Shown in pieces: positions 4,220-26,916 of a stretch of DNA of 64,000 nt (the first letter of the stretch is position 1; each line of letters begins with the position of its first letter). The position numbers and the translations under genes are program-made. The stretch is from the NCBI GenBank assembly GCA_024207135.1, contig CP042428.1:2666001-2730000 (forward strand). The letters run 5' to 3'. This stretch comes from Arthrobacter sp. C2 (GTDB lineage Bacteria; Actinomycetota; Actinomycetes; Actinomycetales; Micrococcaceae). A model generated the notes under the pieces. It worked only from the letters and a program-made list of their open reading frames with translations. It was not told where the DNA came from and made no database searches.

Positions 4220-5179
4220 TCATGGAGGACCCGGAAACGGCAATGCAGCAGCCCGTCCAGCATCTGTTGGCATCCAAGAAAAATTGGGGCCGTGGTCTCG
4301 AGTGCCTTGGGTGAGTAATCTGTGTGTCCTCATGTCTGCCTCCTCCCAAGGAAGAAATGACAGACCAGGACTCAGTTGGCCTTCCCCGAAGTCGTACCTT
4401 GCGCTTGCCCAGATTGCTGCCGTAGTCCGATCAGCTGGGGCGAACTTTTTCAACGCTGACTTATCCACTTCGGCGACGCAGGTGGCTCTGAGCTCGTCGT
4501 CTAACCCGACAACCAACAACTTCCAATAATTGTCGGCCAGTCCCGTTTCGAACTCATGGCGGCTAAGGAAGAAGGAAAGACGACCTCTGCGAGTGGTAGA
4601 TTTCACTTCGAAATGCCATTCGCAGTCCTGGATTGAGGCTGAAACGTCGTATCCGAATCCGTCGTCCCTTGCGGCCACATGATGGATTGCGCCCGGCCAC
4701 TTGGCCTCGAGGAGCATGCATAAGGCAATTTCTCCGGCATTTCCTATCTGTGCACGACGCGCCAAATCAATTTTTCCGCTAATTCTGCGTACGACGCGAA
4801 AGCCTGAGCTGGGAGGGAGCCCCAGCAGTTCCTGCCACCTATTTATGTCCTGGGGCAGGTCATCGCTGCTGTGAACCAGCACGTCCGAATTTTCCAGCCA
4901 AGGGGGGTTAGAGGCCTCCAAGAGACTGGCCAAAAGGCATTCTTTCCTGCCCTGTGAAGTCATTTTCTGTAGCGTGTCGGACCGGCCCAAGGTGTTAACT
5001 GTCAGGTCCGTCCATCGCAGCGAGTGCAGCCAATCGAGGGCAGTGGAGTATTGCGTTGGAGTCAGATCCGCGTATCGGGAGTTGGATCGAATAACCATCG
5101 AGGCCTGAGATTCAGTGGAACGCCCTAGCAAGTCAAGCCATCTGGCTGCGGCGATGAGTACTCCTTCAGCGGGGATCAT
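4220..5179 (-). CDS. DUF3883-like protein with PD-(D/E)xK nuclease core
   Basis: 319 residues. The first 120 are helical and unrecognised. Residues 145-215 look like a restriction-endonuclease fold of the DUF3883/Mrr-like kind: GNAGE (E150), then FGYDV (D178), then HFEVKST (E191, K193), a layout matching E...D...ExK catalysis. The tail from about 215 is unassigned. Its ATG overlaps the SNF2 gene's stop by four bases (ATGA), so it is the last gene of the SNF2/ParB operon and its protein probably works with them. DUF3883 domains recur as nuclease modules in restriction and anti-phage operons. My inference is that this is the DNA-cutting arm of a multi-gene restriction system. The domain name is from memory of the motif, not a search. 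Confidence 0.68.
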   Translation of the reverse strand: MIPAEGVLIAAARWLDLLGRSTESQASMVIRSNSRYADLTPTQYSTALDWLHSLRWTDLTVNTLGRSDTLQKMTSQGRKECLLASLLEASNPPWLENSDVLVHSSDDLPQDINRWQELLGLPPSSGFRVVRRISGKIDLARRAQIGNAGEIALCMLLEAKWPGAIHHVAARDDGFGYDVSASIQDCEWHFEVKSTTRRGRLSFFLSRHEFETGLADNYWKLLVVGLDDELRATCVAEVDKSALKKFAPADRTTAAIWASARYDFGEGQLSPGLSFLPWEEADMRTHRLLTQGTRDHGPNFSWMPTDAGRAAALPFPGPP

Positions 5180-6963
5180 CGATTCAAGTAGGTGGAGAGG
5201 GCAGCAAGGTCGGACAGGTCCATTCCGATAGATTCGTCGATTTCTTCTTCGAGGTCCCCGAGAACACGCACGTTGGGATCGTCGAGAATGCCGCCCATGA
5301 ATTCCAGTTTCCGGGCAAGCCGATCTTCGACTAGCTCATCGATAGTCCCTGAGGCTGACAAGATGGTGATCTTCGTAATCGTTGACGGAGCAAGACCGAG
5401 CCGATGGATGCGATCCAGGCTTTGGAGGAACCGGCCGGCGGAAAAATCACGGTCTACGTAAACGGCGTCATGACACTCATGATGGAGACTGACACCTTCG
5501 CCCAGTGTTGCGGGGTTGGACAGCAGGACAGCGCAGGTGGGATCCTCCCGGAAGCGTTTGAGTTCTGCTTCCCGGTCGATGGTTCCTCCATGGATCAAGG
5601 CGGGGTTGAAGTCCACGAGTATCCTCTCTAGCGACTTCAGGTTTCGCACGAAAGTCGACCAAATGAGAGTTTTTCTTCCTGTGGCAGCATTCTTTTCCAC
5701 TATGCTGCGTACTTCCTGGTATTTAGGGTTGAGCTCATAGAGTGGCAGGTCCCGAAGAAGTTCCATGGCGGAAGTGTTCTCGGGGACCTGATAGGGCGGC
5801 ACACGGTATGGCAAAGCTTCGTGTTTGTCCGAGCCAACGGCAAGAAGTGCGGGCGAAGTGGCAGCCATCAACAGATACAGCAGGATTCTTCCCAGAGCGG
5901 CCATGTCACCGGCCTCGGATGCTGAAGCAAGTCTTCCTTGGCCGAGAAGTGCATCGTATATTTCCCGGTGCAGCGGCGGAAGTTCGACCCGGCGGATGGA
6001 TACCTCAACTGGGGGCAAATTCAATTCGGACTTCGTTGTCCGGGTAAAAAGTGGCTTGAGGGCCTGGCTCGCAATCGAAAGATCGTCGTAGGCTACCGCC
6101 CGCTGAACAGTTGCTCGCCCTTGCCCTGGCCACACAAATGAGAAGAGGCTTTCTAGGTCCTTTGCCCCGTTGGGAGCTGGTGTACCGGTCAAGATGAGAC
6201 GATTCGTCGCGTAGGGGCCAAGAGTAAGGCACGCGCTCCCCCAGGCTCCCGAACTCCCAAGTTTCATCCGGTGGGCTTCGTCAAGGACCAAGAGGGTTGA
6301 AGCAGCTTTCATCCACGAAATAAGCGGCGGAATTGAATTGGAAAGACGCTCGTAGTTGACCAAGAGAATGTCGACCTCCGGAGGAGGACCCCCGGTCCAC
6401 ACATGGGTAGTTATCCGGGTACCACTAAAGCAGACCCCGGCTTCATATACCCAGCTTTCGAATGCAGATTTAGGGCTCACCACGAGCATGCGATCGATCG
6501 ATCCACTCCCACGACGGGTCGCGTAGACCGCCATGGTCGCCCGGGTCTTTCCTGCGCCTGGAACACTGAAGTTTGCGCCGTGATTGAGCGCCATAAGCTT
6601 AGAGAGATCACGGGTTTGGTGCTCCGTAAGCGGAGCAATCCAGTTGGATGGCAGGGTGGGAACCGACAGCGGACCGGACTCTTCGGTTCTAAGACGCGCT
6701 TCTACCACAGTGGAGTCCTGGACGTTTCCTTCGACGAGCCTGAGGAGAGTGCCGTCCCAGCGGACATCAACATCTTCTTGAGGCCATCTCGCTAGTTCAC
6801 GGAGATTGACGAGGAAGTCATCGATTTCAACGCTGACTGATGTTTTGTGCAAGCTCAAACTTGTCGAAAAGTGCGTGGTCAGCATCCGAAGATGCGGCGC
6901 GTTTTTTTCATCGCACGAAAGATCAATTCGCCCTGCCGTGAGAGAAAACCGGAGGTCGAGCAC
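5176..6963 (-). CDS. SNF2-family DEAD/DEAH helicase-like ATPase
   Basis: A 595-residue superfamily 2 ATPase of SNF2 type. Residues 1-105 are an N-terminal region with no motif I know. Q-like motif LTEHQ is at 112-116, Walker A GAGKT at 136-140, DEAH at 228-231 and LTGTP at 258-262, and the second RecA lobe ends with QSLDRIHRLG (motif VI, arginine finger). It overlaps the nuclease-like gene downstream and begins one base after the ParB-like gene ends. SNF2 translocases in restriction-type systems (DISARM DrmD, Dpd DpdE) move along double-stranded DNA and hand it to a nuclease or modification enzyme. The same role is inferred here. It is shorter than DrmD and has no DUF1998 or methyltransferase partner of DISARM type beside it. 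Confidence 0.88.
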   Translation of the reverse strand: MLDLRFSLTAGRIDLSCDEKNAPHLRMLTTHFSTSLSLHKTSVSVEIDDFLVNLRELARWPQEDVDVRWDGTLLRLVEGNVQDSTVVEARLRTEESGPLSVPTLPSNWIAPLTEHQTRDLSKLMALNHGANFSVPGAGKTRATMAVYATRRGSGSIDRMLVVSPKSAFESWVYEAGVCFSGTRITTHVWTGGPPPEVDILLVNYERLSNSIPPLISWMKAASTLLVLDEAHRMKLGSSGAWGSACLTLGPYATNRLILTGTPAPNGAKDLESLFSFVWPGQGRATVQRAVAYDDLSIASQALKPLFTRTTKSELNLPPVEVSIRRVELPPLHREIYDALLGQGRLASASEAGDMAALGRILLYLLMAATSPALLAVGSDKHEALPYRVPPYQVPENTSAMELLRDLPLYELNPKYQEVRSIVEKNAATGRKTLIWSTFVRNLKSLERILVDFNPALIHGGTIDREAELKRFREDPTCAVLLSNPATLGEGVSLHHECHDAVYVDRDFSAGRFLQSLDRIHRLGLAPSTITKITILSASGTIDELVEDRLARKLEFMGGILDDPNVRVLGDLEEEIDESIGMDLSDLAALSTYLNR

Positions 6964-6964
6964 T

Positions 6965-8392
6965 CTAGTTTTCCGCCCCTATCTCGACTCGGGTTATCGC
7001 TTGAAGCCACCGAACGCCGTCTGTCACTTCGCTGGAGCCTCGGCTGACAATCTGTGCAAGCTTGTGCAGATTCTCTCGGATTGCTCCTATGCCGTCTTCC
7101 AGGTCTGACATGCTGAAGTTGCCTGTAGCTTTAGCAACCCCGACAGCTTCCAGGGCCAGCTCCAAAGCATCGTTTGCATCGGACAGCCGGTCAGCTGCTG
7201 CTAGTTTCCTCTTCAGTACCCTGCCCTGACGGCCGGCTAGATCCAACCCATCGTCAAGGGCAGTCTGTGTGGTTGTAAGTAATTGCTGTGCTGCCGCCCG
7301 CTCCATGATGGATACATCGGCGTGGGGCTGAGTTGCTGCCCTCGCTTGGAGCACGGCGGTGGTTGAGGCTTTCAATGCTTCGACCATCGCGCTCGGGCCT
7401 GGCGCCGTCAATTGCGTGCCCGGAATGCGCACGGTGCTTCCCTGGGTCGAGGACAGCTCCGGCATAAGCGGCTTAGCGTATTTTCCGAGAAAATCAGACT
7501 CGATCAACCGGAGATCGGTCTTGGATTTATTGAGTGCTATGGCCAACAGGCGCTGTTCTCTCAGCGCTTCCGCTTCATCCGGTGCCTTTACCTTGAGGGC
7601 GGAATAGGACCGGTAGAGTTCCTCGAGTTTCCCCTGCTGTTCTTCAAAATCCACTAAACGCAGGGAAACGGGCAGGCCGTCCGATGCCACGATCCGGCTC
7701 CTGTCGATGGCTTCGCGGACGAGGCTCAAGATCCATAGATGGCGTTCAAGAGTTGCCGCCTTGATTCGGAAGTCAGTCGTGATCTCATGGGCAGGTCGTC
7801 CCTGTTGGATCCTTTCCTCAATGGCCAGTAGGAAGTTCATGAACGAGTAGTCGCGCTTGTGGTCTTTTCTCAATTGCAGAGCAAGCTCTATGGAACGAAG
7901 ATCATCCAGGCCTGCATCCGGAGGAAGGACTCCGACGCGGATGTGCTCCTGCTTCAGCTCCGAAAGCGCCGCCCGGCGTGTGTTGCCGTTGATCAGGACA
8001 CCGTTACGCGTTATGAGGCCCGGGTCGCTTTGACCGTGGACCTTCAGGTCCTCTTTAAGTACCTCAAAGGCGGGATCTACGGACTCCGGGTTTGTGGGAT
8101 CACCTTTGAGCAGTTGATGGAGGTACGCCTGGCCAAGATCGCCATACGGATCGTTGTCCAGGTCTTGGTCCTTGACGCTGTCGATACTCCGCTGGGCACG
8201 AATACGATGAGTTGCGGGGTTGTAGTACAAAATTTCCACCGGCATGGAAATGACTGGCAAGTGCGTCGAGCTTCCGCGCCATTCAATCGAGACAGTCTCA
8301 TGGACTCCCTCTGTGGACCGGTTCGCAGCTAAACGCTCCTCGATAATGGCTTTGTTGTCCTGCGCACGCCTTGGCACGTTGCTCACAGTCAT
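6965..8392 (-). CDS. ParB-like N-terminal domain protein of a defence operon
   Basis: 475 residues. Residues 45-150 resemble the ParB/Srx nuclease-like domain: a P-V-I-YNP entry motif (about 51-60) and INGNTRRAAL (134-143), the conserved nucleotide-binding box of ParB-like proteins. Residues 155-250 look like a ParB helix-turn-helix stretch (ERIQQGRPAHEI...RIKAATLERHLWIL). From 330 onward it is alpha-helical and probably coiled. It is not next to parA or an origin, so chromosome partition is unlikely. As the first gene of the operon with SNF2 and the nuclease-like gene, it may be a sequence-sensing or CTP/ATP-switch subunit. The ATG at 8392 has AAGGGGG immediately before it; GTG at 8386 has better spacing and may be the true start. 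Confidence 0.72.
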   Translation of the reverse strand: MTVSNVPRRAQDNKAIIEERLAANRSTEGVHETVSIEWRGSSTHLPVISMPVEILYYNPATHRIRAQRSIDSVKDQDLDNDPYGDLGQAYLHQLLKGDPTNPESVDPAFEVLKEDLKVHGQSDPGLITRNGVLINGNTRRAALSELKQEHIRVGVLPPDAGLDDLRSIELALQLRKDHKRDYSFMNFLLAIEERIQQGRPAHEITTDFRIKAATLERHLWILSLVREAIDRSRIVASDGLPVSLRLVDFEEQQGKLEELYRSYSALKVKAPDEAEALREQRLLAIALNKSKTDLRLIESDFLGKYAKPLMPELSSTQGSTVRIPGTQLTAPGPSAMVEALKASTTAVLQARAATQPHADVSIMERAAAQQLLTTTQTALDDGLDLAGRQGRVLKRKLAAADRLSDANDALELALEAVGVAKATGNFSMSDLEDGIGAIRENLHKLAQIVSRGSSEVTDGVRWLQAITRVEIGAEN

Positions 8393-8467
8393 CCCCCTTA
8401 AAGTAAAGTTCCCAATTTCATCCTAATGTGTTGCCCCCGGTCAATCTTCAGGGGACACCCAAACCGC

Positions 8468-8479
8468 CAGACATGTCTG
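8468..8479. promoter_or_regulatory. Perfect 12-bp palindrome in divergent promoter region
   Basis: CAGACATGTCTG is a perfect dyad between the divergent ParB-like and winged-helix genes. A second TCATGA-N6-TCATGA symmetry follows at about 8504-8521, covering the likely start of the winged-helix gene. Both would be good places for autoregulation by a DNA-binding member of the system. Confidence 0.35.
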
Positions 8480-8505
8480 CATTGTCCATAAGGCATAAAT
8501 CAATC

Positions 8506-9186
8506 ATGATTGACGTCATGAACCTTCCCGACTGGAGAACAAGCAACGCTGGGACACGCGTCCGGGCTGCCCTATGGCTGGCATCAGAGATTGGCGAGGG
8601 GGGCGTCTTTACGAAAGCCCGGCTCCGGGAAGCGTTTCCGGGAGTCGAACAGATTGATCGCCGTATGCGGGATCTAAGAAAGGACGACTGGATCATTGCA
8701 ACGTACGCGCAAGAACGCTCACTGGCCGTGGACGAGCTCCGGCTGGTCAAGATCGGTGGCCCTGTCTGGGAAGTCGGGTATAAATCCACAACAACCCGAA
8801 CCGCCAGCAACCGTGAGCGCCGGGAGACTCTTGCCAGGGACAACTTTGCTTGTGTCTTCTGCGGCATAGGCGCCGGAGAATCCTACAGTGACGATCCGGC
8901 TCGTTCGGGACAGTTGAGCGTTACCTGGTGCGGGTCGGCTGGGCCAGCAGGACGTTATGTGACTTCTTGCAAACTGTGCCGCAATCCGCTTGACGGAGCC
9001 GACTCAGGTAATGACGCTTTTGAGGCCGCCGCACGGCTCGACCCTGCTGAAACTCAGGTGCTAGCCCAGTGGATAGCCGTCGGCTACAGGACGCCGCAAA
9101 AACTCGATAAGACCTGGACTCTTGTGAGGCTGCTTTCGAAGGCGCAGCGCGACGATCTACTACATCGACTTAAAACGATCACCTAA
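8506..9186 (+). CDS. Winged-helix plus HNH-like zinc-finger protein lacking catalytic histidine
   Basis: 226 residues from the ATG at 8506 (MIDVMNL). Earlier in-frame starts at 8428 and 8473 would run through the palindrome at 8468, so I prefer 8506. Residues 8-95 predict a winged helix: two helices, a recognition-like segment around LREAFPGVEQIDRRMRDL, then beta strands ending PVWEVGY. Residues 103-160 resemble the zinc frame of an HNH nuclease (RRETLARDNFACVFCG, then CKLC at 155-158; C116, C119, C155, C158). Where HNH enzymes carry D-H, this protein reads LSVTWCG, and no histidine lies between the cysteine pairs. It is divergent from the SNF2/ParB operon and directly upstream of a dead 5mC methyltransferase. 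It may be a DNA-recognition subunit or a regulator. Confidence 0.7.
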   Translation: MIDVMNLPDWRTSNAGTRVRAALWLASEIGEGGVFTKARLREAFPGVEQIDRRMRDLRKDDWIIATYAQERSLAVDELRLVKIGGPVWEVGYKSTTTRTASNRERRETLARDNFACVFCGIGAGESYSDDPARSGQLSVTWCGSAGPAGRYVTSCKLCRNPLDGADSGNDAFEAAARLDPAETQVLAQWIAVGYRTPQKLDKTWTLVRLLSKAQRDDLLHRLKTIT

Positions 9187-9247
9187 ATAGGATCCAAGGC
9201 GCGTCAGGCGACCAAACCATCACAGATGACATGAGATGATGGGCCGC

Positions 9248-10204
9248 ATGGTTGCAACCTCCCCCGCCCTCAACGTGCCCGAAATCTGCGCCGGAGCGGG
9301 AGGTCAATCCGTCGGCATGGAAAAGGCAGGATATCGGACACTCCCTCGCGGCGGATCTCGATATTGATGCAGCCGCGACCCTTCGCCTGAACCGTCCTGA
9401 TTGGAATGTGCATCAGGGCGACGTCCGGGAAATCAGTGGACGGGGTTACAAAGGCATTGATCTCTAGGCCGGTGGAATTCCCTGCCCGCCTTTCAGCATT
9501 GCCGGCAAGCAGCTGGGCGCTGATGACGAACGCGACCTTTTCCCCGCAGCGCTCCGCCTTGTCCGCGAACCGTCACTTACAGCCGTACTACTCGAAAACG
9601 CAAGGGGCTTGGCCTCGGCTCGGTTCACTCCGGACCGCCAGTTAATCTTGGAGGCCCTCGACAAGCCGGGTTACGACTCTGACTGGCAGCTGTTTAACTC
9701 AAGCGAGCTTGGGGTCCCCCAGTTGCGTCCCCGGGGCCCAGGGCACTCCCCCGACGGTGGGCGGCGTCCTGTGGCCGTTGATGAAAAGCGGAGGCTGGCC
9801 ACGCGCAGAGGCATGGGCAGCGAGAGCCAACTACATTGCTCCAACAGTTGTAGGAGGCTCGAAAAAACACGGCGGCGCCGACCTCGGTCCCACCCGTGCG
9901 AAGGCCGCGTGGCTGCAGCTCGGGGCCGACGGCAAGGGAATCGCAAATGAAGTGCCTGCCCCTGACACAGCCCTCAACCATGTACCGCGACTGACGAACG
10001 AAATGGTAGCGCGCGTCTAGGGGTTTCCCCAGAGTGGCAGTTCGCAGGTCGCAAAACCTCCGTTTACCGCCAGACCGACAACGCCTTTCCCCCGCTTGTC
10101 GCATGCGCGATCGGAAGTTTCATTGCGCATGCCCTCGGCGTAAAGAGCCACTCGAACAACATGGAAATCGATTTGGTCGACAGGTATTTTCAAGCCGTTA
10201 GCTA
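9248..10204 (+). pseudogene. Wrecked DNA cytosine-5 methyltransferase, paralogue of the 12410-13417 gene
   Basis: The pieces align end to end with the intact methyltransferase at 12410. Frame one gives the AdoMet motif (EICAGAGGQSVGMEKAGY). A one-base insertion at about 9334 shifts to a frame encoding GHSLAADLDIDAAATLRLN. A TAG at 9465-9467 stops it just before the catalytic region, where IPCPPFS is still readable after the stop. Near 9720-9735 roughly 20 codons are lost and the frame changes again, giving GTPPTVGGVL then the target-recognition segment (VVGGSKKHGGADLGPTRAK). A TAG at 10018-10020 and another shift precede the terminal AVS. At least four lesions make it non-functional. It probably once protected DNA for the winged-helix/SNF2 module or an older copy of the NaeI-like system. 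Confidence 0.9.
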
Positions 10205-10248
10205 AATTTCATTTTCCTTTCGGATCTCGCCAGCCTTGACTGATATTC

Positions 10249-10458
10249 CTAACGACCGCGCCGCAACAAGTCGTTTTCGACAGCGAGTATCCATTCCCTG
10301 TCTCCGACTCGGATCTCAACCAAGGCCTTTCCCTTTGAATCAGTGCCTCGCTCTTCAGCCTCAAAGTAAGGCCAGCCATCTCTGGCCTGCGCAACGGCGT
10401 CCCGCGTTTTAACCACATGGCACCATCCCAATGGCTGGATCTGCTCGGCACCCTGCAC
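10249..10458 (-). CDS. Small hypothetical protein, doubtful
   Basis: A 69-residue frame with protein-like composition in its second half (RDGWPYFEAEERG, then VEIRVGDREWILAVEND). No family is recognised, the ribosome-binding site is weak, and part of it could be the tail of a lost gene. The rest of 10205-10655 holds nothing I can support, only scattered stop codons in all frames. Confidence 0.3.
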   Translation of the reverse strand: MQGAEQIQPLGWCHVVKTRDAVAQARDGWPYFEAEERGTDSKGKALVEIRVGDREWILAVENDLLRRGR

Positions 10459-10655
10459 GTTTCAAAATTCTTTTCCATCCCTCAACATTGCTGCGGCCTT
10501 AAAGCCACGGGCTGTTCTTGCGCCCAATGCTCACTAGCGGCCGCATTTGAACAACCGACGTTCAATTCGTTGTCGTCAAACCAAAGGGGTGAGTTGGCGA
10601 CGGGTGGGACGATCAGCCTCGTTCTATACGGTGATTTGGCATCCCAGAGGATCGT

Positions 10656-11186
10656 CTACGTTTGAACTTTCTCGAGCGTTGATCGCACGCTTTCAAGGGT
10701 ATCTCCGTGGGGGTGCATCCAATCAGGGGCGGCACCAGGGCGCACCTCCAACCAGGCCGTTTCATTAGCGCCAGAGCCCGTATGCTGCCCCATACGGCCG
10801 ATGACATGCTCTTTGATGACACTTTTCGGCAGCAACCATGCGTGTATTTTGAAAGGTGAGATTCCCAGGCAGAGACAATATGCATAGTCCTGGTCGCGAA
10901 TTTGCTGGAACTTATAGAAGCCCACGTCCCAAAGGGTGGACATCTTTATTTGGATTAGATGTCCATTGATCCAACGATCCCCTTGTCCATCTGGAGCTCC
11001 CTCTACAAAAAGTCCAACAGCACGCGCCCATTCAGTTATCAAGGTCTTCCCAACCCGACCCTTGGTGGCCGAAGGAACTCCTCGAATCCATTCGAAAGAA
11101 CTCCCCGTCCATGCGTCGTTCCGCACGATCTCCCCAAGAAGCTTTTCGGAGGCGGAGGTCATGATCTTATAGTCACTTAAAGTCAT
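10656..11186 (-). CDS. Putative restriction endonuclease partner of the adjacent methyltransferase
   Basis: 176 residues, not assigned to a named family. The core looks like a small PD-(D/E)xK fold: a helix with GKTLITEWA (E52), then GDRWINGHLIQIKMST, where D70 and Q79-I-K81 fit a D...QxK variant, followed by an alternating hydrophobic strand (YAYCLCLGI). Its ATG overlaps the methyltransferase stop (TAATG), so translation is coupled and the methyltransferase is made first, the usual order for a restriction-modification pair. Length and position favour a type II endonuclease. If the QxK reading is wrong it could be a specificity or accessory protein. Base composition is lower in GC than the flanking metabolic genes, consistent with transfer. 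Confidence 0.6.
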   Translation of the reverse strand: MTLSDYKIMTSASEKLLGEIVRNDAWTGSSFEWIRGVPSATKGRVGKTLITEWARAVGLFVEGAPDGQGDRWINGHLIQIKMSTLWDVGFYKFQQIRDQDYAYCLCLGISPFKIHAWLLPKSVIKEHVIGRMGQHTGSGANETAWLEVRPGAAPDWMHPHGDTLESVRSTLEKVQT

Positions 11187-12121
11187 TACGCTAGCCCCCG
11201 TTTGGATGGACTAGCGGCATAAATCCGAACCTCCTCCTCCATGTCGGCAGAGCTTCTCAGATGGGGACTGAGTCGCGCCTTGATGGTGACTAACGACTCA
11301 GGATTTTGATCGATCATTACAAATTTCCTTCCGAGGTCATGCGCCACCGCTCCCGTAGTTCCACTTCCTGCAAAAAAATCGAGAACCCAATCGCCTGGCT
11401 CGCTACTAGCTTGAATAATCCGCCGAAGGATGCCTTCCGGTTTTTGGGTAGGATACCCTGTTTTTTCCTTCCCCATTGTCGACACAATAGTGTGCCACCA
11501 GACATCGCTGGGAAGAACATCTGTGGCTGACGGCCTAAGACTCAGGCCCGGAGTCTTATACGGTTCTCCATCAACGTCCCGTGTGTTGAAAATGTAGTTC
11601 TCTGAGTTCTTCACATAGACCAATATATTGTCATGCTTTGTTGGCCATTTCGTTCGGGCTCTTGCGCCATAATCGTACGCCCAAATAATTTCATTCAAAA
11701 AGCAGTTACTTCCGAATATCGAATCCAAATAGACCTTGGCGTAATGCACTTCACGGTAATCAAGGTGCAAATACAAGGTCCCGTCGTCGGTCAACAGCCG
11801 CCAGGCTTCCATCAAACGTGGCTTCAGGAAAGCCCAATAGTCATCAAAAGTATCGTCGTAGGCTAACTTCGCGCCCTTGACCGTTTCGTACCTCTCGCCC
11901 TTGAAACCTAACCTGTTACCAGTAGCAGATCGCATCGTTTTCAACGAGTGCCGAACTTGAGTTTTTCCGGTGTTAAATGGCGGGTCAATGTAGATCAGTC
12001 GGAAAGTTTCATCCGGCAAAGAACGAAGTACGCCCAAATTGTCACCTTCAACAACCAGGCTCGGTCCGGAGTGACTCCAGCTCAGAGTCGTTTGATTTTC
12101 ACGTGCTGTCGCATCAATCAT
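11186..12121 (-). CDS. Site-specific DNA amino-methyltransferase (N6-A or N4-C), beta class
   Basis: 311 residues. The catalytic motif IYIDPPFN (D46-F49) comes before the AdoMet-binding motif LDFFAGSGTTGAVA (248-260), the order that defines the beta class. The GYPTQKP motif at about 222-228 is also typical. DPPF is commoner in N6-adenine enzymes, so adenine methylation is the likelier product. The target-recognition part lies between about 120 and 215. It forms a coupled two-gene unit with the 176-residue protein after it and presumably protects the host from that protein. There is no type I S subunit or type III Res gene nearby, so a type II system is most economical. An ATG with an upstream purine-rich stretch begins the gene. 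Confidence 0.88.
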   Translation of the reverse strand: MIDATARENQTTLSWSHSGPSLVVEGDNLGVLRSLPDETFRLIYIDPPFNTGKTQVRHSLKTMRSATGNRLGFKGERYETVKGAKLAYDDTFDDYWAFLKPRLMEAWRLLTDDGTLYLHLDYREVHYAKVYLDSIFGSNCFLNEIIWAYDYGARARTKWPTKHDNILVYVKNSENYIFNTRDVDGEPYKTPGLSLRPSATDVLPSDVWWHTIVSTMGKEKTGYPTQKPEGILRRIIQASSEPGDWVLDFFAGSGTTGAVAHDLGRKFVMIDQNPESLVTIKARLSPHLRSSADMEEEVRIYAASPSKRGLA

Positions 12122-12409
12122 GATGACGACCCTACTTCCTACCGGTCCATAGCTACGACAACGACAGTCCCAACCGCCCCCCCCTATCTTGGCGGCCGTT
12201 CCATTCTCGAAAACGAACGATTAATGAGACCGGTTGACCCCTCTCGCGGGGTCTTTAGGAGTTCGCGGCACGACTGTAGACTTCAACGTCTAGTGGCGGC
12301 ATTCTCAGCCTGAGCTCCCCCGGTGACTAACTGTCAGTGCTGCATGGCACTGTGGGAGGCGCACCACACAAGGTCCCGGTAACTGCCCCGTAATGAGAAG
12401 ATAGACGAC

Positions 12410-13417
12410 ATGAACACCACCAACTCCCTTTCCGTACTTGAAATCTGCGCTGGTGCAGGTGGCCAGTCAGTTGGCCTGGAAAAGGCCGGCTTCGGCCATG
12501 CTTTGGCAGTCGAGATCGACAAGGACGCGGCGGCAACGCTGAAGCTCAACCGTGAGGCATGGAACGTCCACCATGGGGACGTTCGGGAGATCAACGGCAA
12601 GGACTACAAGGGTGTGGATTTGCTCGCCGGCGGTGTGCCGTGTCCTCCATTCAGCGTTGCGGGAAAGCAGCTTGGTGCTGACGATGAGCGTGACTTGTTC
12701 CCGGAAGCATTGAGGCTCGTCAAAGAAGCCAATCCGTCGGCGGTCATGCTTGAAAACGTTAAGGGGCTAGCTTCGGCTAGGTTTGCGACCTACCGACAGT
12801 CGATTCTGGATGAACTCAAAGAGCTTGGGTACCATGCGGATTGGCAGCTGTTTTATTCGAGTGAGTTTGGCGTGGCCCAGCTGCGCCCCCGTTTTATCCT
12901 GGTGGCTGTCAAAACCCGCTTTCAGAAGAAGTTTGCTTGGCCCGCGCCGCAAGGTACTCCGCCGACGGTCGGTGAAGTTTTGCTGCCATACATGGCTAGT
13001 GGTGGCTGGGCCGGGGCGGAAGCATGGGCGGCCAAGGCTAACAGTGTTGCCCCGACCGTCGTGGGCGGTTCCAAGAAGCACGGCGGAGCCGATCTCGGCC
13101 CGACTCGCGCCAAGGCCGGATGGCTGCAGCTCGGCGTCGATGGCAAGGGAGTTGCTAACGAGGTTCCAGGGCCGGATACTCCTTTCGACCACATTCCGCG
13201 TCTGACCAACCAGATGGTCGCCCGAATCCAGGGCTTCCCTCCGGAGTGGCAGTTCTCCGGACTGAAGACATCCGTATACCGTCAGATCGGCAACGCGTTC
13301 CCGCCGCCGGTTGCTACAGCTATCGGGACATCGATCGCAACCGCGCTGGGCGTCAAAGCGGCGGCTAAGAAATACGATTCGGCGGATGTAGTACGCCATC
13401 TTCGTGCCGTGAGCTAG
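12410..13417 (+). CDS. DNA cytosine-5 methyltransferase, probably of a NaeI-type system
   Basis: 335 residues with all the expected blocks: motif I EICAGAGGQSVGLEKAG (11-27), catalytic VPCPPFS (C78), ENV (about 115), a QLRPRF block, a target-recognition region around GGSKKHGGADLG, and motif X QIGNAFPPPVATAIG near the end. It transfers a methyl group from AdoMet to C5 of cytosine. The intact NaeI-like endonuclease follows on the same strand 252 bases later, so the probable target is a GCCGGC-like site; specificity is inferred from the neighbour only. A degraded paralogue lies at 9248-10204. GAGAAG lies eight to ten bases before the ATG. Confidence 0.92.
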   Translation: MNTTNSLSVLEICAGAGGQSVGLEKAGFGHALAVEIDKDAAATLKLNREAWNVHHGDVREINGKDYKGVDLLAGGVPCPPFSVAGKQLGADDERDLFPEALRLVKEANPSAVMLENVKGLASARFATYRQSILDELKELGYHADWQLFYSSEFGVAQLRPRFILVAVKTRFQKKFAWPAPQGTPPTVGEVLLPYMASGGWAGAEAWAAKANSVAPTVVGGSKKHGGADLGPTRAKAGWLQLGVDGKGVANEVPGPDTPFDHIPRLTNQMVARIQGFPPEWQFSGLKTSVYRQIGNAFPPPVATAIGTSIATALGVKAAAKKYDSADVVRHLRAVS

Positions 13418-13669
13418 GGCTGCTAAACGAAACTCGCTCCCGTTCGTGTTTGCGTGGGCAAGCCTCAGCGCTGAACGTGGAGGTGAGCAGATCTCAACCA
13501 TTCGGGTAGGCGTATCGCAGCACGACGCATCCATCTAACCTCTCACGACTCATTCGGCAGAATTGATGCAGCGACTCCCTGGCGCATAGCGGTCGTGACA
13601 CGCGATCTGACATCGACATGCAGAAGTGTCGAGGTGCGAGAGCACGGTTGCATTCTGTAGTCTCAGACG

Positions 13670-14611
13670 GTGAATCAGTCATTTGAAGTCTTCGTTCCCA
13701 AACCAGACCCCGCTCTTGATGAGGTCGCCGCTGAGCTGAAACGGCTCGACCCTGAAGGTGTACGTTGGGCAGCCGTAATTCGGCACACGTATGACATGAT
13801 TTATAACGGCCAGGAATCGGGGCGTTATCGCTGGGATCAGTTAATGAAGACTGAAAAGACTCATTTCGGGACTGTCCTGGAAATTAATGCCCAAAGAGAA
13901 TTTGAGTTTGAAGATGGGGATAAAACCGATTACAGGATTGCTGGCCATCAAGTTGATGCGAAGTGGAGTCAAGACTGGGGTAAGTGGATGCTCCCCCCGG
14001 AGGTTTTCGGTGAGCTAGCGTTGGTTGTAACAGCTAGCGATGAGAAATCTGTCTGGTCCCTTGGGCTCATCCGCATAACGGCAGATGTCCGCCATGAAAA
14101 AGACAATCGCGATAAGAAGAGTCGGCTCAACAAGTTTGGGCGTGATAACGTCGCTTGGGTCTGGATGGATGCGCCACTTCGTCCAAACGTCCTTTTACAG
14201 CTTCCAGAAAGCATCGTTGAAGACATTCTGGACCATCCGCACGGCACCCAGCGGACTCACCGCCTCTTCAGAGCGACCGCGGACATGATCGTTCACCGCA
14301 ACATCGTTGCCACCGTAGGTCATCAGTTAGACCCGCAAAAGAGAGTGCGCTACAATGGAGGGTCCAGATCTGCCTTGCAGCCTGAAGGCATCATCATCCT
14401 CAGCGGGCTTTATCATCGGCAATTGGCCGAGGATCTTGGCATTGCGGTTCCCCTCCAAGATGAGTACATTTCAGTTCGCGTTACGCCATCCACTGACGCC
14501 ACAGGGGCTGTAATCAATGGCCGTCGGTGGCGGCGCGCTCGGCCGGATGAGGCAATCGACGAGCCTGCCCCCATCATCGAGGAACCGCGACGAGGCGATC
14601 GCAATAGCTAA
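13670..14611 (+). CDS. NaeI-family type II restriction endonuclease
   Basis: 313 residues, close to NaeI's length. The catalytic set known for NaeI (Glu70, Asp86, Asp95, Lys97) is present shifted by one: E71, D87, D96 and K98 in TDYRIAGHQVDAKWS. The ligase-like segment of NaeI is also recognisable at 40-49 (TYDMIYNGQE), with Ile44 where NaeI has the well-known Leu43. Residues from about 165 onward correspond to the DNA-binding Topo domain that binds a second site as effector. The start is a GTG with no Shine-Dalgarno; the TA-rich box about 10 bases upstream suggests a leaderless transcript. The methyltransferase at 12410 is the presumed partner. Confidence 0.88.
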   Translation: MNQSFEVFVPKPDPALDEVAAELKRLDPEGVRWAAVIRHTYDMIYNGQESGRYRWDQLMKTEKTHFGTVLEINAQREFEFEDGDKTDYRIAGHQVDAKWSQDWGKWMLPPEVFGELALVVTASDEKSVWSLGLIRITADVRHEKDNRDKKSRLNKFGRDNVAWVWMDAPLRPNVLLQLPESIVEDILDHPHGTQRTHRLFRATADMIVHRNIVATVGHQLDPQKRVRYNGGSRSALQPEGIIILSGLYHRQLAEDLGIAVPLQDEYISVRVTPSTDATGAVINGRRWRRARPDEAIDEPAPIIEEPRRGDRNS

Positions 14612-14765
14612 AGCGACAAGGTTTGAATGATGGGCTGGATCCCCGAGCTCAGTTGCTTGGATGACACTGCTGGTTGGTTTCGACAGGCAGTGATGTTAAT
14701 TCGAAGCATCGGATAGCGGGTGTGGAGCGAATCGGTAGCACCCGTGGGTGCATCGGATTGCTGCG

Positions 14766-14806
14766 AAATAGCGCCTCTTGGTAGTGCTGATCCGACGACC
14801 TGGTGT
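14766..14806 (+). repeat. Repeat copy R1 of an intergenic repeat family
   Basis: Begins AAATAGCGCC and continues through GGTAGTGCTGATCCGACGAC. It shares its layout with R2-R5: AAATAGCG, a six-base variable segment, GGTA, then a segment ending in TCCG and usually CGACC. R2 begins exactly 50 bases later in the same orientation. A weaker ATAGCG copy may lie at about 14712. Confidence 0.6.
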
Positions 14807-14811
14807 GTAAT

Positions 14812-14890
14812 TGCCAAATAGCGTCTGATGGTACCGGTGTTCCGGCGACCAACAGGTCGGAACGGGAGTACCGTCTGGCCCTATTTGGCA
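14812..14890. repeat. Head-to-head repeat pair R2/R3 forming a 79-bp imperfect palindrome
   Basis: R2 (14816-14856, plus) and R3 (14887-14848, minus) meet tip to tip. The outer arms match perfectly for ten bases (TGCCAAATAG against its complement), then share GGTAC and GTTCCG blocks, with a GACC-AACA-GGTC turn. It could fold into a long cruciform or RNA hairpin. The arrangement is that of REP/BIME elements, which favour gaps between convergent genes. This gap is convergent (NaeI-like plus strand, HNH minus strand). Confidence 0.7.
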
Positions 14891-15003
14891 TCTATCTCGC
14901 CGACGGAGAAGGATTTCGTGTATTGGCGTGGCTTTCGGTACGGGTGTGTCACGAAGCGGAACACCTGTGCGGGTGCGGGCATCAGACAAGACATAGAAGA
15001 GTC

Positions 15004-15042
15004 CAAGTCGTCAGAACAGTAGTACCTTCAGACGCTATCTGG
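15004..15042 (-). repeat. Repeat copy R4
   Basis: Read on the minus strand it begins CCAGATAGCGTCTGAAGGTAC and ends GTTCTGACGACTTGG, matching R2 closely, including the six-base middle. It is the last copy before the Septu-like genes and points away from them. Confidence 0.6.
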
Positions 15043-15183
15043 CAGGTGGTCGCTTCATTGTGGCCAGCCACCCCTACCGGCCAATTGCAAATCTCACGGA
15101 ACATGTCTAGGGAACTCACAATCACCGAATACACCTAACGGAAATTGCAATAAACAATATGAGGAGATCGCAAATCTTGTAAA

Positions 15184-15798
15184 TCATAAGGAATCCAATA
15201 TCCTGTCATAGATATACTGTAATATTGGTGGCAGTCTATCAAACTTGTTTCTTCTGTAATCATTTTTCCATTCACTGAGCAAGTCGGGTGAAGCAAGATC
15301 GAAAAGTCTAACCGTCTCCCGTCCCTTATCGTCGAGAGTTTGAATTGGAGTTGGCCTACGGTTATCATTCATGAATCCACCGCAAAGATGGTTATCCAAT
15401 TTATCAAGATACGGATGAACTAAAGTAAATTCCGTAGAATAATAAATCGAATTTTTTATATTTTTCGAGGTGGGAACCACAGGGTCATAGCGAGATTTGA
15501 AGTGCTGGTTGCAGCTGCTGCACGCGACTATCCAATTCATGGTTTCGAATGTCCACCGAGGATACGTCTCTTTGGGTGCAAAGTGGTCAATATCGATTCC
15601 GCGACGGGCCAGAACGTGCCCGATCTTTGCTAAGCAAAAAGCGCATCGATGATTCTGCGAAGTCAAAGCCCAAGCTCTGAAGCTATCTTTAAGGTCTTCT
15701 AGCTCATTTGCTGAACTGTCCCATGACCGTTGGCCACCGGTTCGCGAAACTCCAACTGTTGATGAGGCTGAAATTTTCGGCTTAGATAACTGGCGCAT
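15184..15798 (-). CDS. ptuB: HNH endonuclease, PtuB-like (Septu)
   Basis: 204 residues. The zinc and catalytic frame is complete: C52-AF-C55, D71-H72 in IDIDHFAP, N88, C93-SS-C96 and H99. This is the HNH/beta-beta-alpha-Me nuclease arrangement. The gene starts directly after the ATPase stop (TAG then ATG), so the pair is translationally linked. An AAA/SMC-like ATPase immediately followed by an HNH nuclease is the defining layout of Septu, where PtuA regulates PtuB and PtuB cleaves DNA. The same pair also occurs as the effector of some retrons, but I find no reverse transcriptase here. The C-terminal residues 110-204 are of unknown role. Confidence 0.82.
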   Translation of the reverse strand: MRQLSKPKISASSTVGVSRTGGQRSWDSSANELEDLKDSFRAWALTSQNHRCAFCLAKIGHVLARRGIDIDHFAPKETYPRWTFETMNWIVACSSCNQHFKSRYDPVVPTSKNIKNSIYYSTEFTLVHPYLDKLDNHLCGGFMNDNRRPTPIQTLDDKGRETVRLFDLASPDLLSEWKNDYRRNKFDRLPPILQYIYDRILDSL

Positions 15799-17118
15799 CT
15801 AGTTCTCCCCACTACCGAGCAATTCGCGAACTTGACCAATCACATCGTTCAAGTCTTTCGTGTCCGGTCCGGATAAAATCTCTAGCCGACGCAGGCTTCG
15901 CGCGACTTCAGCGTCCGGAAAATCACCCAAACCGGCAATATATTCCAGCAGAATCTGCAAATCGTCTTGAACCAACGAGTTCCCACTGATTCGGGCCCTA
16001 AAAACGCGGTAAAGGATGTTTTCGACAGAGCGTCCCTGAAAAGGCTCATCAAATTGCACAAAATCACCCCACTTGGCACCCGGGACAAGCAGATCGCTGC
16101 CGTCTGAGACAATATACGGGGAATGGGTGGCAATGACGAAGTGGCAACGATAATTCGACGGGATCGATTCGTTGAGAAGTGGAATATAGCGGTGCTGCCA
16201 ATTTGGATGTAGTCCAGATTCTGGCTCATCAATAAGGACCAGCGCCCCAGGCTCGATATTCGCAACTATTCGGGCGAATGTAGAGATAATTATTTGCTGA
16301 CCAGCGCTAAGTGATGTGAAATTGAATGTTCCATATTTCCCAGTAAATGTCGATTCGACCTTACCCAAACTCAGTATTCTAAATAATTGAGAAATTTTGG
16401 ATGGGCTGACTTCATACTTATAAGACATGTCTAAAACTTTTTCAATTGATCTACCGAACTTGAAACTGTCTTCTTCGTCGATACCAAAATGTCTTATTGC
16501 TTCCTCGACATCCTGAGCTAGTCCGGAAATTTCTACATTAGCTGAATCCAAAAGTTGAGATATTAAAGCACTTCTAGTGCCCTTGGGTTTTTCCAAAATT
16601 TCTGAAATTCTATAAATAACGTTTGGTTTGCTTATTTCCGCCTTGTTCGCTGCTTCGAAAGTGAATCCAAATTTCGTCATTTGAATTTCTGATAGAAGAG
16701 GTTGGATCCACTCCAGCTTTGCCGGTGTTCCTTCAAAGTCCAAGAGTGAATCGCACGTCGTTTGTGCAAGGGATCCAGTAAACACATTGTTGGTTGCCCC
16801 GCGCAATCCTAGGTACTTGTATCCACCTATGGTGCCGGTGTCGTACGGAAATGAATCCTGTACCAGGTTCGAGATTGCAAGGAGGCTGGTGTTATCCGGA
16901 AAGCTCCCAGGGGCCTTGTCCTGGTCGAATCTAAGTTCCCAAGACGTCAATCCTTTGGTCTCTCGCCTAAACTGATGGGCAATGCTTCCAAGCAAATGGC
17001 TTTTCCCGGCACCATTTGCGCCAATAACAACTGTGAACTTATTTTCCAATCGCCTGTTTTTAATATTTTCGGTTGGCATCGAAAACGTGCCGATCTTTGA
17101 CACAAATTTAGTTCGCAA
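15799..17118 (-). CDS. ptuA: AAA ATPase, PtuA-like (Septu)
   Basis: 439 residues of the OLD/RecF-type ABC-ATPase group. Walker A GANGAGKS is at 33-40, the ABC signature region LSAGQQ at 270-275, Walker B with catalytic glutamate LVLIDEPESGLHP at 294-305, and the His switch ATHS shortly after. The insert between about 60 and 240 is the variable arm region. No TOPRIM domain follows, which separates it from OLD nucleases and fits PtuA. The start is TTG at 17118 behind an A/G-rich leader; no ATG is available upstream in frame. The gene is markedly AT-richer than the surrounding chromosome, with AAA/ATT codons common, indicating recent acquisition. Confidence 0.82.
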   Translation of the reverse strand: MRTKFVSKIGTFSMPTENIKNRRLENKFTVVIGANGAGKSHLLGSIAHQFRRETKGLTSWELRFDQDKAPGSFPDNTSLLAISNLVQDSFPYDTGTIGGYKYLGLRGATNNVFTGSLAQTTCDSLLDFEGTPAKLEWIQPLLSEIQMTKFGFTFEAANKAEISKPNVIYRISEILEKPKGTRSALISQLLDSANVEISGLAQDVEEAIRHFGIDEEDSFKFGRSIEKVLDMSYKYEVSPSKISQLFRILSLGKVESTFTGKYGTFNFTSLSAGQQIIISTFARIVANIEPGALVLIDEPESGLHPNWQHRYIPLLNESIPSNYRCHFVIATHSPYIVSDGSDLLVPGAKWGDFVQFDEPFQGRSVENILYRVFRARISGNSLVQDDLQILLEYIAGLGDFPDAEVARSLRRLEILSGPDTKDLNDVIGQVRELLGSGEN

Positions 17119-25698: not shown

Positions 25699-26916
25699 TT
25701 ACGCGGAACACACTCGAGCATGAGCCAAGTTGGCGACGTTTTGCACTCGCTCCAGCAGCAGTTCTGGACTCAGCGACAGATCCAATGGAAAGTGAACGAT
25801 TTCCTTGCGCGTGTTTCGGACTTTCACAAGCCTGGCTTTGCCGGATCCTGCATAGAGCAACCATGCCCTTGGCACAGCAAGTGCGGTGCAGTAAGCAAGC
25901 ATCTGGTACTCATCGGCGTTCGAGTAGCTACCGAAATATGAAGCCTTGTACTTGGCGTCAAATACGATTCGAGGCACTCCAGTCTCGCAATAGACGGCAT
26001 CGACATACATGGACGTCCGCGGCTTTCCCCCTGGTTTCGGTTCATCCAAATGAGCTTCGAACTGCGAGTGAACAGTCCCGGGAAAGGAAAGCATCGATTC
26101 TCTCAACGCTGCCGCAACAAAGTCCTCAAAAACCTTTGCCATGTCCACTGCAAATGAGCTCATCCGGCCGCGCCCTATTCCTGCCTCCACCGATAGGCCA
26201 GCCCGGATCTGCGCGGCCAAGCGCAGAGCAGGAATGTAATGGGCGTTGGCCTTGCTTTCGCGCCAATCCGGCCAAGCGGCACCTCGACGAAGCACCTCAA
26301 CACCGTCCAGCTTCCTGTCCAAATGAGAGAGACGTGCGCTGACCTCCGGAGAAAGATCGGGAAGAGCGAGCAGCAATCGGATCGCCGTCCGAAGGATCCG
26401 GTTCTCAGCGATGTCCATCGTGAATTCGTCATAGGTGACTTCCAGCGGAACAGGTAGTCCAACGTGTCGCGAGAGCTGGTCACCCACACGGATCCTGCCA
26501 CGGAGTACTCGCAGAGATTCATCCACGGTGAGGTAGCTGAATAGCGGTCCGCGTTTCAGTGCCTTTTCGCATTGCCGTGCAAAGGAGTGCGCGATCGCCG
26601 CAAAAAAGTCTGGCTCCTCCACCGCGTCAGTGTCCTCTTCGCGAAACCCTGGATCGGCAGCGTATCCGAGCATGAACATCAATCGGTTCAGGCCCACCCT
26701 CGCTTTGGGAAGAACCTCAATCAGCAGCCCGCCCATCTGCACGGCCCCCACCATTCCCGTCGGGCAGATAGTCCAGCCACCGCCCCATGCCCGAGCGACA
26801 AGCAACAACTTGGAGGCCCGCAGCCGCGCAGCATCGCCCTCACTTAGTTCCACCGTTCGGGGTGCGGTTTCAAGCTCGTCAAAGACGATGTGCGTACTCA
26901 CGTCAGGACAGATCAT
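25699..26916 (-). CDS. mcrC: McrC-like nuclease subunit of McrBC restriction system
   Basis: 405 residues. The N-terminal part matches the McrC bridging region (GLLIEVLPKARVGLNRLMFML). The PD-(D/E)xK centre is at about 310-325: DAVYCET, then RIVFDAKYK, with aspartate before and D-A-K after. It cuts DNA when McrB translocates from methylated sites. The ATG at 26916 overlaps the McrB stop by 14 bases, so synthesis is coupled. The pair sits between two metabolic regions on its own, with metabolic genes on both sides. Confidence 0.9.
   Translation of the reverse strand: MICPDVSTHIVFDELETAPRTVELSEGDAARLRASKLLLVARAWGGGWTICPTGMVGAVQMGGLLIEVLPKARVGLNRLMFMLGYAADPGFREEDTDAVEEPDFFAAIAHSFARQCEKALKRGPLFSYLTVDESLRVLRGRIRVGDQLSRHVGLPVPLEVTYDEFTMDIAENRILRTAIRLLLALPDLSPEVSARLSHLDRKLDGVEVLRRGAAWPDWRESKANAHYIPALRLAAQIRAGLSVEAGIGRGRMSSFAVDMAKVFEDFVAAALRESMLSFPGTVHSQFEAHLDEPKPGGKPRTSMYVDAVYCETGVPRIVFDAKYKASYFGSYSNADEYQMLAYCTALAVPRAWLLYAGSGKARLVKVRNTRKEIVHFPLDLSLSPELLLERVQNVANLAHARVCSA

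Follow-up and report, generated by a model that had tools for sequence, protein, structure and literature searches.

Relatives of SNF2-family ATPases are found in the defence systems DISARM, Dpd and Zorya. DISARM also has a 5-methylcytosine (5mC) methyltransferase, CglI includes one as well, and Druantia is composed of DruE/DruF/DruG with DruM. Type II restriction enzymes require no ATP, and in CglI, according to the available part of the same paper, the nuclease R.CglI is combined with the helicase-like ATPase H.CglI, for which ATP-driven translocation has been proposed (PMC5737866). The available text of Iyer, Abhiman and Aravind (2008; PMC2292703) describes 5mC restriction-modification (R-M) operons with a MORC/paraMORC ATPase, a superfamily II (SFII) helicase, an HNH, EcoRII-like or HKD nuclease and Vsr, and in one group of these operons the helicase is of the SWI2/SNF2 type. 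Other accounts, as far as their accessible portions go, report an SNF2 helicase fused to DUF3883 in DUF499/HEPN R-M operons (PMC3710099), a SWI2/SNF2-nuclease with COG1743 and DUF499 (PMC7641849), and BREX-related systems (PMC12839542). Here we describe a four-gene module at 4220-9186 of a 64,000-nucleotide stretch of DNA from Arthrobacter sp. C2 (contig CP042428.1, positions 2,666,001 to 2,730,000; hereafter the window), which we would class with ATP-dependent, methyltransferase-guarded restriction and whose putative specificity part is unusual. We propose, as an even call, that it is a portable ATP-dependent restriction module that plugs onto R-M systems, in which a dead restriction enzyme would read the DNA, a ParB-like protein would clamp it, an SNF2 ATPase would translocate and a nuclease would cut.

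The four genes, and the methyltransferase remains that follow them, are listed below; dN/dS, the ratio of non-synonymous to synonymous substitution, was computed by the simple Nei-Gojobori method between the window and the same-genus genome G001.

4220..5179, minus strand: NOV_C/DUF3883 PD-(D/E)xK nuclease, 319 amino acids (aa); PF13020 E=3e-6; dN/dS 0.21
5176..6963, minus strand: SNF2-family ATPase, 595 aa, GTG start; PF00176 E=7e-17 and Helicase_C; dN/dS 0.14
6965..8392, minus strand: ParB-like protein, 475 aa, with GNTRR where GERR is expected; Spo0J/ParB matches; dN/dS 0.23
8506..9186, plus strand: winged-helix protein with a degenerate HNH part, 226 aa; lacks the catalytic His and Asn but has four invariant Cys; dN/dS 0.38
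9257..10202, plus strand: 5mC methyltransferase remains; four tblastn pieces in differing frames

The open reading frames (ORFs) lie where an earlier first-pass annotation had placed three coupled minus-strand genes and a divergent one. Read directly, the sequence has the ParB stop codon TAG, one base and then the GTG of the SNF2 gene, and the SNF2 and NOV_C genes overlap via ATGA. The winged-helix ORF spans 8428-9186 on the plus strand and encodes 252 aa from GTG or 226 aa from the ATG at 8506. With dN/dS between 0.14 and 0.38, the four-gene set is not a product of chance: the genes are intact, coupled and under purifying selection. The SNF2 motifs SVPGAGKT and DEAH are intact and conserved among relatives, and the protein matches phrog_62, a phage DNA helicase family (PHROGs, 211 bits). 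The NOV_C active-site residues E150, D178, E191 and K193 are kept in 36-37 of the 37 proteins of a NOV_C alignment. No match to the ParB-like gene was found in Pfam, PADLOC or NCBIfam; its 475-aa product weakly matches several ParB-like PHROG families (E=1.7e-5), and ParB profiles match Spo0J (1vz0; E=8.5e-4 in one search, 0.0036 in another) and the “ParB domain protein nuclease” 5k5a (E=8.8e-4). GERR is the CTP-binding motif of ParB CTPase clamps, and the position aligned with it reads GNTRR or GNRR. The winged-helix gene has no significant Pfam, PADLOC or NCBIfam match (best AnkUBD, E=0.21).

How does this set compare with the described systems? That it is neither DISARM nor Dpd, as had been suspected from the gene content, is borne out by the scores of the SNF2 protein, which reaches 30 bits with the DISARM DrmD equivalog (NF038317, cut-off 610), 14.7 bits with the Dpd helicase DpdE (NF041062, cut-off 500) and 10.6 bits with ZorD of Zorya (NF041790, cut-off 1500). 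The module shares SNF2 relatives with these three systems, at scores far below curated cut-offs, and a 5mC methyltransferase with DISARM; their other parts are not seen among the PADLOC matches listed for the module region; neither drmA nor drmB is among those listed for the ten proteins of 4220-17118. An intact methyltransferase of the window, described below, matches the DruM model with 573 bits, against a weak 117 bits for DrmMII, and no other Dru protein is among the PADLOC matches listed. DISARM, Dpd, Zorya, Druantia and BREX helicases were rejected as the identity of the module by model scores.

With the operons of PMC2292703, as described in its available text, the module shares a neighbourhood of 5mC methyltransferase, Vsr, SNF2-type helicase and varied nucleases, but it has a ParB-like protein in place of the GHKL ATPase, and a dead restriction-enzyme relative comes first. 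The word ParB is absent from that paper, and no GHKL (MORC/paraMORC) ATPase is among the Pfam matches of the ten proteins of 4220-17118, a check that did not extend to their relatives. For ATP-dependent R-M systems (Types I and III and CglI), whose cleavage needs ATP hydrolysis, the comparison extends to the intact SNF2 motifs of the module. CglI resembles the module in that a methyltransferase guards a nuclease and a helicase-like ATPase encoded apart from it, and the systems of PMC3710099, PMC7641849 and PMC12839542 in the pairing of an SNF2 motor with a nuclease in an R-M setting; from what the accessible text of these three papers describes, the module differs in its separate genes, its ParB-like partner and the lack of any DUF499 or PglZ seen. 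NaeI and NgoMIV Type II R-M systems have the same methyltransferase family and a nearby restriction endonuclease, but need no ATP, and the module is optional there. R-M operons that contain a helicase are described in the available parts of PMC2292703, PMC3710099, PMC7641849, PMC10853773, PMC12458937, PMC12839542 and PMC5737866, none of them pairing ParB-SNF2 with a dead restriction enzyme. Our literature search, which left preprints and most subscription papers outside its scope, returned no description of ParB-SNF2 with R-M systems or adjacent dead restriction enzymes.

The gene order is conserved across genomes, a check that the first-pass annotation had proposed. ParB relatives lie at 219 places in a species-genome collection; the best 80 were kept, nearly all of them Actinomycetota by title, and the locus counts given here describe that clade. 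Of 198 relative genomes 4 have a ParB relative, and a profile search of 394 genomes of the class gave 9; both counts include the window genome. Among 72,556 plasmid records there were 8, and among viral contigs a single ParB protein as query gave 0 matches and an alignment gave 6. SNF2 adjoins ParB in 79 of the 80 kept loci, and the winged-helix gene is adjacent in 78, on the same strand in 61 and divergent in 17, every one of the 17 carrying NOV_C. An M.NaeI-like 5mC methyltransferase lies inside 75 loci and Vsr inside 74, all among those 75; within the window the Vsr profile found nothing. The gene association across genomes is solid. The nuclease varies: 36 loci have NOV_C, in most of them directly 3' of SNF2, 38 have NaeI, 6 have both and 12 have neither. 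An NgoMIV-like enzyme is present in 3 of these 12 and in 7 loci overall, and 71 loci carry NOV_C, NaeI or NgoMIV, so that a methyltransferase linked to a nuclease, the broad definition of an R-M system, describes these loci. NaeI and NOV_C as strict alternatives were rejected, both being present in 6 loci.

The methyltransferase link extends beyond the locus. In the class sample of 394 genomes, 9 of which have the module (the window genome included), the methyltransferase was found at E<=1e-40 in 8 of the 9 module genomes versus 38 of the 385 others (p=1.6e-7). Any PF00145 match occurs in 43 of 98 class genomes, and a chance methyltransferase within 10 kb of the module should therefore be rare. 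The link to METHYLTRANSFERASE is also seen where the local copy is missing, as four of five such genomes have a 55-61% identical copy elsewhere. A tree of the methyltransferases does not separate NOV_C-linked copies from NaeI-linked or solo NaeI ones; they are intermixed. Conservation of the putative target-recognition stretch (window residues 212-262) is 0.64 between the NOV_C and NaeI groups, compared to 0.55 for the rest of the protein, and equals that within either group; because of this the NOV_C-linked and NaeI-linked methyltransferases likely share one target. We take NaeI to recognise GCCGGC, the same site as NgoMIV. The latter cleaves G/CCGGC (PMC4081073), and the available text of that paper prints the NaeI site differently, apparently by a slip. 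At NaeI loci outside the window, inspected over about 9 kb or to the contig end, the module is present in 4 of 25 and the methyltransferase in 23 of 25; the module as part of every NaeI system was thus rejected.

The slot just upstream of ParB appears, in three unrelated lineages, to be occupied by a restriction-enzyme relative that has lost its catalytic residues. In Actinomycetota it holds a winged-helix protein with four invariant cysteines, alignable with HNH proteins. The HNH catalytic His is found in none of 79 slot proteins (78 loci and the window; 73 have Arg) compared to 9 of 12 relatives outside the slot, and the Asn of CxxCN in none of the 79 compared to 11 of the 12. The first-pass annotation had called the window protein winged-helix/HNH-like; its two CxxC knuckles are kept, but the HNH catalytic residues are gone. 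Relatives outside the slot match HNH (PF01844; L045 E=9e-11, L022 2e-10, L028 and L082 below cut-off), and that of L082 matches a PADLOC Type II restriction endonuclease model (E=1.7e-6). Eight loci (L022, L028, L030, L032, L037, L039, L057, L082) carry a second M.NaeI-like methyltransferase with a winged-helix/HNH paralogue beside the module, and 7 of these 8 paralogues keep the HNH His. A structure model of the window protein, built from a 39-row alignment, has a mean pLDDT (predicted local distance difference test) of 87.8 and a pTM (predicted template modelling score) of 0.65, and its first elements, as modelled, fit a winged helix. The constant QxDRRxRxLR helix was dropped as proof of one target, as other HNH relatives have it.

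On the alphaproteobacterial plasmids L006, L007, L008 and L010 the slot protein is about 285 aa long and of a PD-ExK family; that of L010, the one tested, matches a PADLOC Type II restriction endonuclease model (E=2.8e-19). Homologues on plasmids L170-L177 and at L010:4845-5708 each lie directly 3' of a DNA cytosine methyltransferase. The D...(E/D)xK motif is kept in all 9 of these methyltransferase-linked relatives, which include near-duplicates (L172/L176, L171/L175), while D and E are gone in all 4 slot copies; one plasmid carries both a slot copy and an intact relative. The comparison used 8 fetched of 13 remote plasmid records with this protein family, and the unrelated row L008:18307-19233 (DUF4928, 18% identity) was left out of the counts. 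Compared with the partner methyltransferases of the intact enzyme, those of L006, L008, L010 and the viral-collection contig L097 show 53-72% identity; the methyltransferase on L007's plasmid shares 68% identity with the one of L010. On such plasmids the module's partner methyltransferase is of the family usually found beside the intact enzyme. A third version, in alphaproteobacterial operons (L011, L098 and L100), begins with an N4/N6 methyltransferase and a BglII-like protein of 155 aa (PF09195 E=1.6e-5 in L011), followed by ParB, SNF2 and NOV_C (PF13020 E=6.5e-15 in L011). D and E are gone in all three of the BglII-like slot proteins compared and kept in two PF09195 relatives outside the slot; L102 looked like L100, and the L099 copy was not recovered. 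The contigs L098, L100 and L102, which have this operon version, are catalogued as viral in IMG/VR.

The window itself is a case in which the adjacent methyltransferase is broken. The order of nuclease, SNF2 and ParB, divergent from the winged-helix and methyltransferase genes, is common to the window and 11 of the 80 loci (L025, L027, L038, L047, L051, L063, L072, L081, L084, L085, L096). The methyltransferase frame is open in all 11 and broken in the window, in line with the earlier suggestion that the module was once paired with the dead 5mC methyltransferase beside it. The nearest relatives of the broken gene are an intact paralogue at a distance of 2.2 kb (69.8% identity over 325 aa) and its sister-genome counterpart (70.5%), the next best match being 59%. 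G001 has the same gene set, its adjacent methyltransferase broken too. Because the methyltransferase is broken in both genomes while the module's dN/dS is low, the window module has outlived its own methyltransferase and is still under selection. The intact paralogue, which likely protects the host in place of the dead copy, is one of several genes downstream of the module:

10656-12121: Type II R-M pair
12410..13417, plus strand: M.NaeI-like 5mC methyltransferase, intact; PF00145 E=1e-69; dN/dS 0.07
13670..14611, plus strand: NaeI-family restriction endonuclease; PF09126 E=1e-100
15184-17118, minus strand: PtuA/PtuB-like pair by PADLOC models, beside the R-M cluster

Further contexts of ParB-SNF2 are as follows, seven of the 65 SNF2-match plasmid records outside the first set being covered. 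Exiguobacterium, Priestia and Lactiplantibacillus have SNF2 proteins with an N-terminal PLD-like domain (L009 PF13091 E=1.3e-5, below cut-off); L180 and L184 show an HxK motif. ParB-SNF2 lies near dcm genes in Exiguobacterium and Priestia and near Sau3AI-type enzymes in Priestia and Lactiplantibacillus, and in the last it is also beside a short methyltransferase fragment. Type III Mod and Res genes come immediately before ParB-SNF2 on Lactococcus and Enterococcus faecium plasmids (L179, L182), and the genes overlap. The pair is preceded by an 864-aa protein annotated as a sigma-factor-like helix-turn-helix protein in Enterococcus faecalis, and by an 860-aa hypothetical protein in Enterococcus lactis. 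Each of the six ParB proteins that were tested fits the profile of the family (E=1e-33 to 1e-55), and because such proteins are found in dcm, Sau3AI-type and Type III contexts, ParB-SNF2 is a dyad that joins several R-M types.

Starting from the observed gene content and order, methyltransferase co-occurrence, catalytic-residue loss and selection, we infer target reading, clamp loading, translocation and cleavage in that sequence. The core would be the ParB-like protein with the SNF2 motor. A restriction endonuclease derivative without an active site, here the winged-helix/degenerate-HNH protein, would recognise target sites that the partner methyltransferase has not modified, probably GCCGGC as for NaeI; the ParB-like protein had been seen as the sensor, a role for which the winged-helix protein is the better candidate. 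The clamp would load at the reader-bound site, after which SNF2 would translocate, and cleavage would fall to NOV_C in the window, to the partner restriction endonuclease where NOV_C is missing and to PLD in some contexts. The host would be spared by M.NaeI-like modification of its own sites, with the window copy at 12410-13417 covering for the dead one, and Vsr would repair deaminated 5mC. We speculate, by analogy, that ParB takes the place held by MORC/GHKL ATPases in the PMC2292703 operons.

The slot protein could also be read as a transcription regulator of the operon, like the C proteins of R-M systems, with ParB-SNF2-NOV_C restricting and finding its targets alone or via the methyltransferase. 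Its N-terminal winged helix and the divergent promoter layout of 17 of 78 loci and the window would suit a regulator; in 61 of the 78, however, the slot gene is in line with ParB, and three unrelated restriction-enzyme families in one position would be odd for such a role, which we consider unlikely. It is quite unlikely that the module is protective, the dead enzyme occupying or inspecting host sites while SNF2 removes the partner endonuclease or aids damage repair (restriction alleviation, with Vsr). The constant link to methyltransferase and Vsr would fit this, as would the separate endonuclease of many module loci (NaeI in 38 of 80), but NOV_C with an intact active site usually directly follows SNF2 where it is present, and the window module was kept under selection though its own methyltransferase had died. 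It is very unlikely that the module is an independent anti-phage system whose place beside R-M genes only reflects a shared defence island. Plasmids and chromosomes of several phyla carry the module, and 4 genomes have the methyltransferase elsewhere, both of which such a system would allow; against it stand one methyltransferase family in 75 of 80 loci, the co-occurrence across genomes and a slot protein family that tracks the methyltransferase family. The first-pass annotation had likewise seen a free-standing undescribed system, an idea that gives way here, the recurrent neighbours being known R-M systems, an outcome that the annotation itself had set against it: the module is an add-on to an M.NaeI-like methyltransferase with NaeI, NgoMIV or NOV_C, and to other R-M types. 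The earlier interpretation as a whole is partly supported.

Several observations weigh against a dead-enzyme reader serving a portable ParB-SNF2 module. The His is missing as well from three of the 12 winged-helix relatives that lie elsewhere than in the slot (L022 at 15053, L026, L085); a distance rule put the L026 copy, which has neither His nor Asn and begins about 800 bases ahead of the ParB match, among these outside relatives. A Foldseek search with the model of the winged-helix protein found nothing significant, the best match being EcoKMcrA, an HNH enzyme, at E=0.27. The BglII-like alignment is remote and has two comparators only, and since slot copies within a lineage are related, the 79, 4 and 3 proteins are not independent events and the independent count is three. 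In the Bacillota Type III and Sau3AI-type contexts no such slot protein is apparent from annotation, with no further search made. NOV_C is missing from 44 of the 80 loci, and 9 show none of NOV_C, NaeI and NgoMIV, one of these (L026) being a 4.5-kb contig. On a ParB+SNF2 tree of 84 leaves, NOV_C and NaeI swap 8 times by parsimony when loci with neither are treated as unknown. Counting “none” as a third state gives 18 changes, where 500 shuffles average 32.9 and never fall below 24, and because of this difference the nuclease type, though exchanged repeatedly, is also inherited and not freely exchanged. The module is an optional addition to NaeI systems, most of which are without it. Among module carriers, the fifth genome without a local methyltransferase (L074) has a best match of only 30% identity, G495 has no M.NaeI-like methyltransferase at E<=1e-40, and the 25.4-kb stretch with the Streptomyces plasmid copy L005 has no winged-helix gene and no match to the C5 methyltransferase profile.

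Tentatively, we suggest that at least three times a restriction enzyme became a cleavage-dead reader for portable ParB-SNF2, which would give Type II systems, and via their own Mod-Res also Type III systems, an ATP-driven second line. If true, this would be a new restriction-system architecture, with a retired endonuclease as specificity subunit, and a novel design for an energy-driven defence against foreign DNA. It would explain the rise of ATP-dependent restriction from ordinary Type II systems, the cutting enzyme being disarmed and kept as reader while cleavage passes to a motor-driven complex. ParB-fold proteins would gain a defence role as clamps, parallel to the MORC proteins in related operons. 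A dead reader and an intact enzyme of one family on one plasmid offer ready pairs for testing.

Two further observations concern the neighbours of the module. The NaeI genes of the window (13670-14611) and of its sister genome (L013, 6074-7165) are just 48% identical, and the intact methyltransferases of the same two genomes 95.5%; because of this disparity, the NaeI endonuclease seems to have been exchanged or to be evolving much faster than the methyltransferase. The window also holds an McrBC 5mC restriction pair at 25699-29212 on the minus strand (PF10117 E=1e-56 and an AAA_5 protein), which could in principle attack DNA modified by the window's 5mC methyltransferases.

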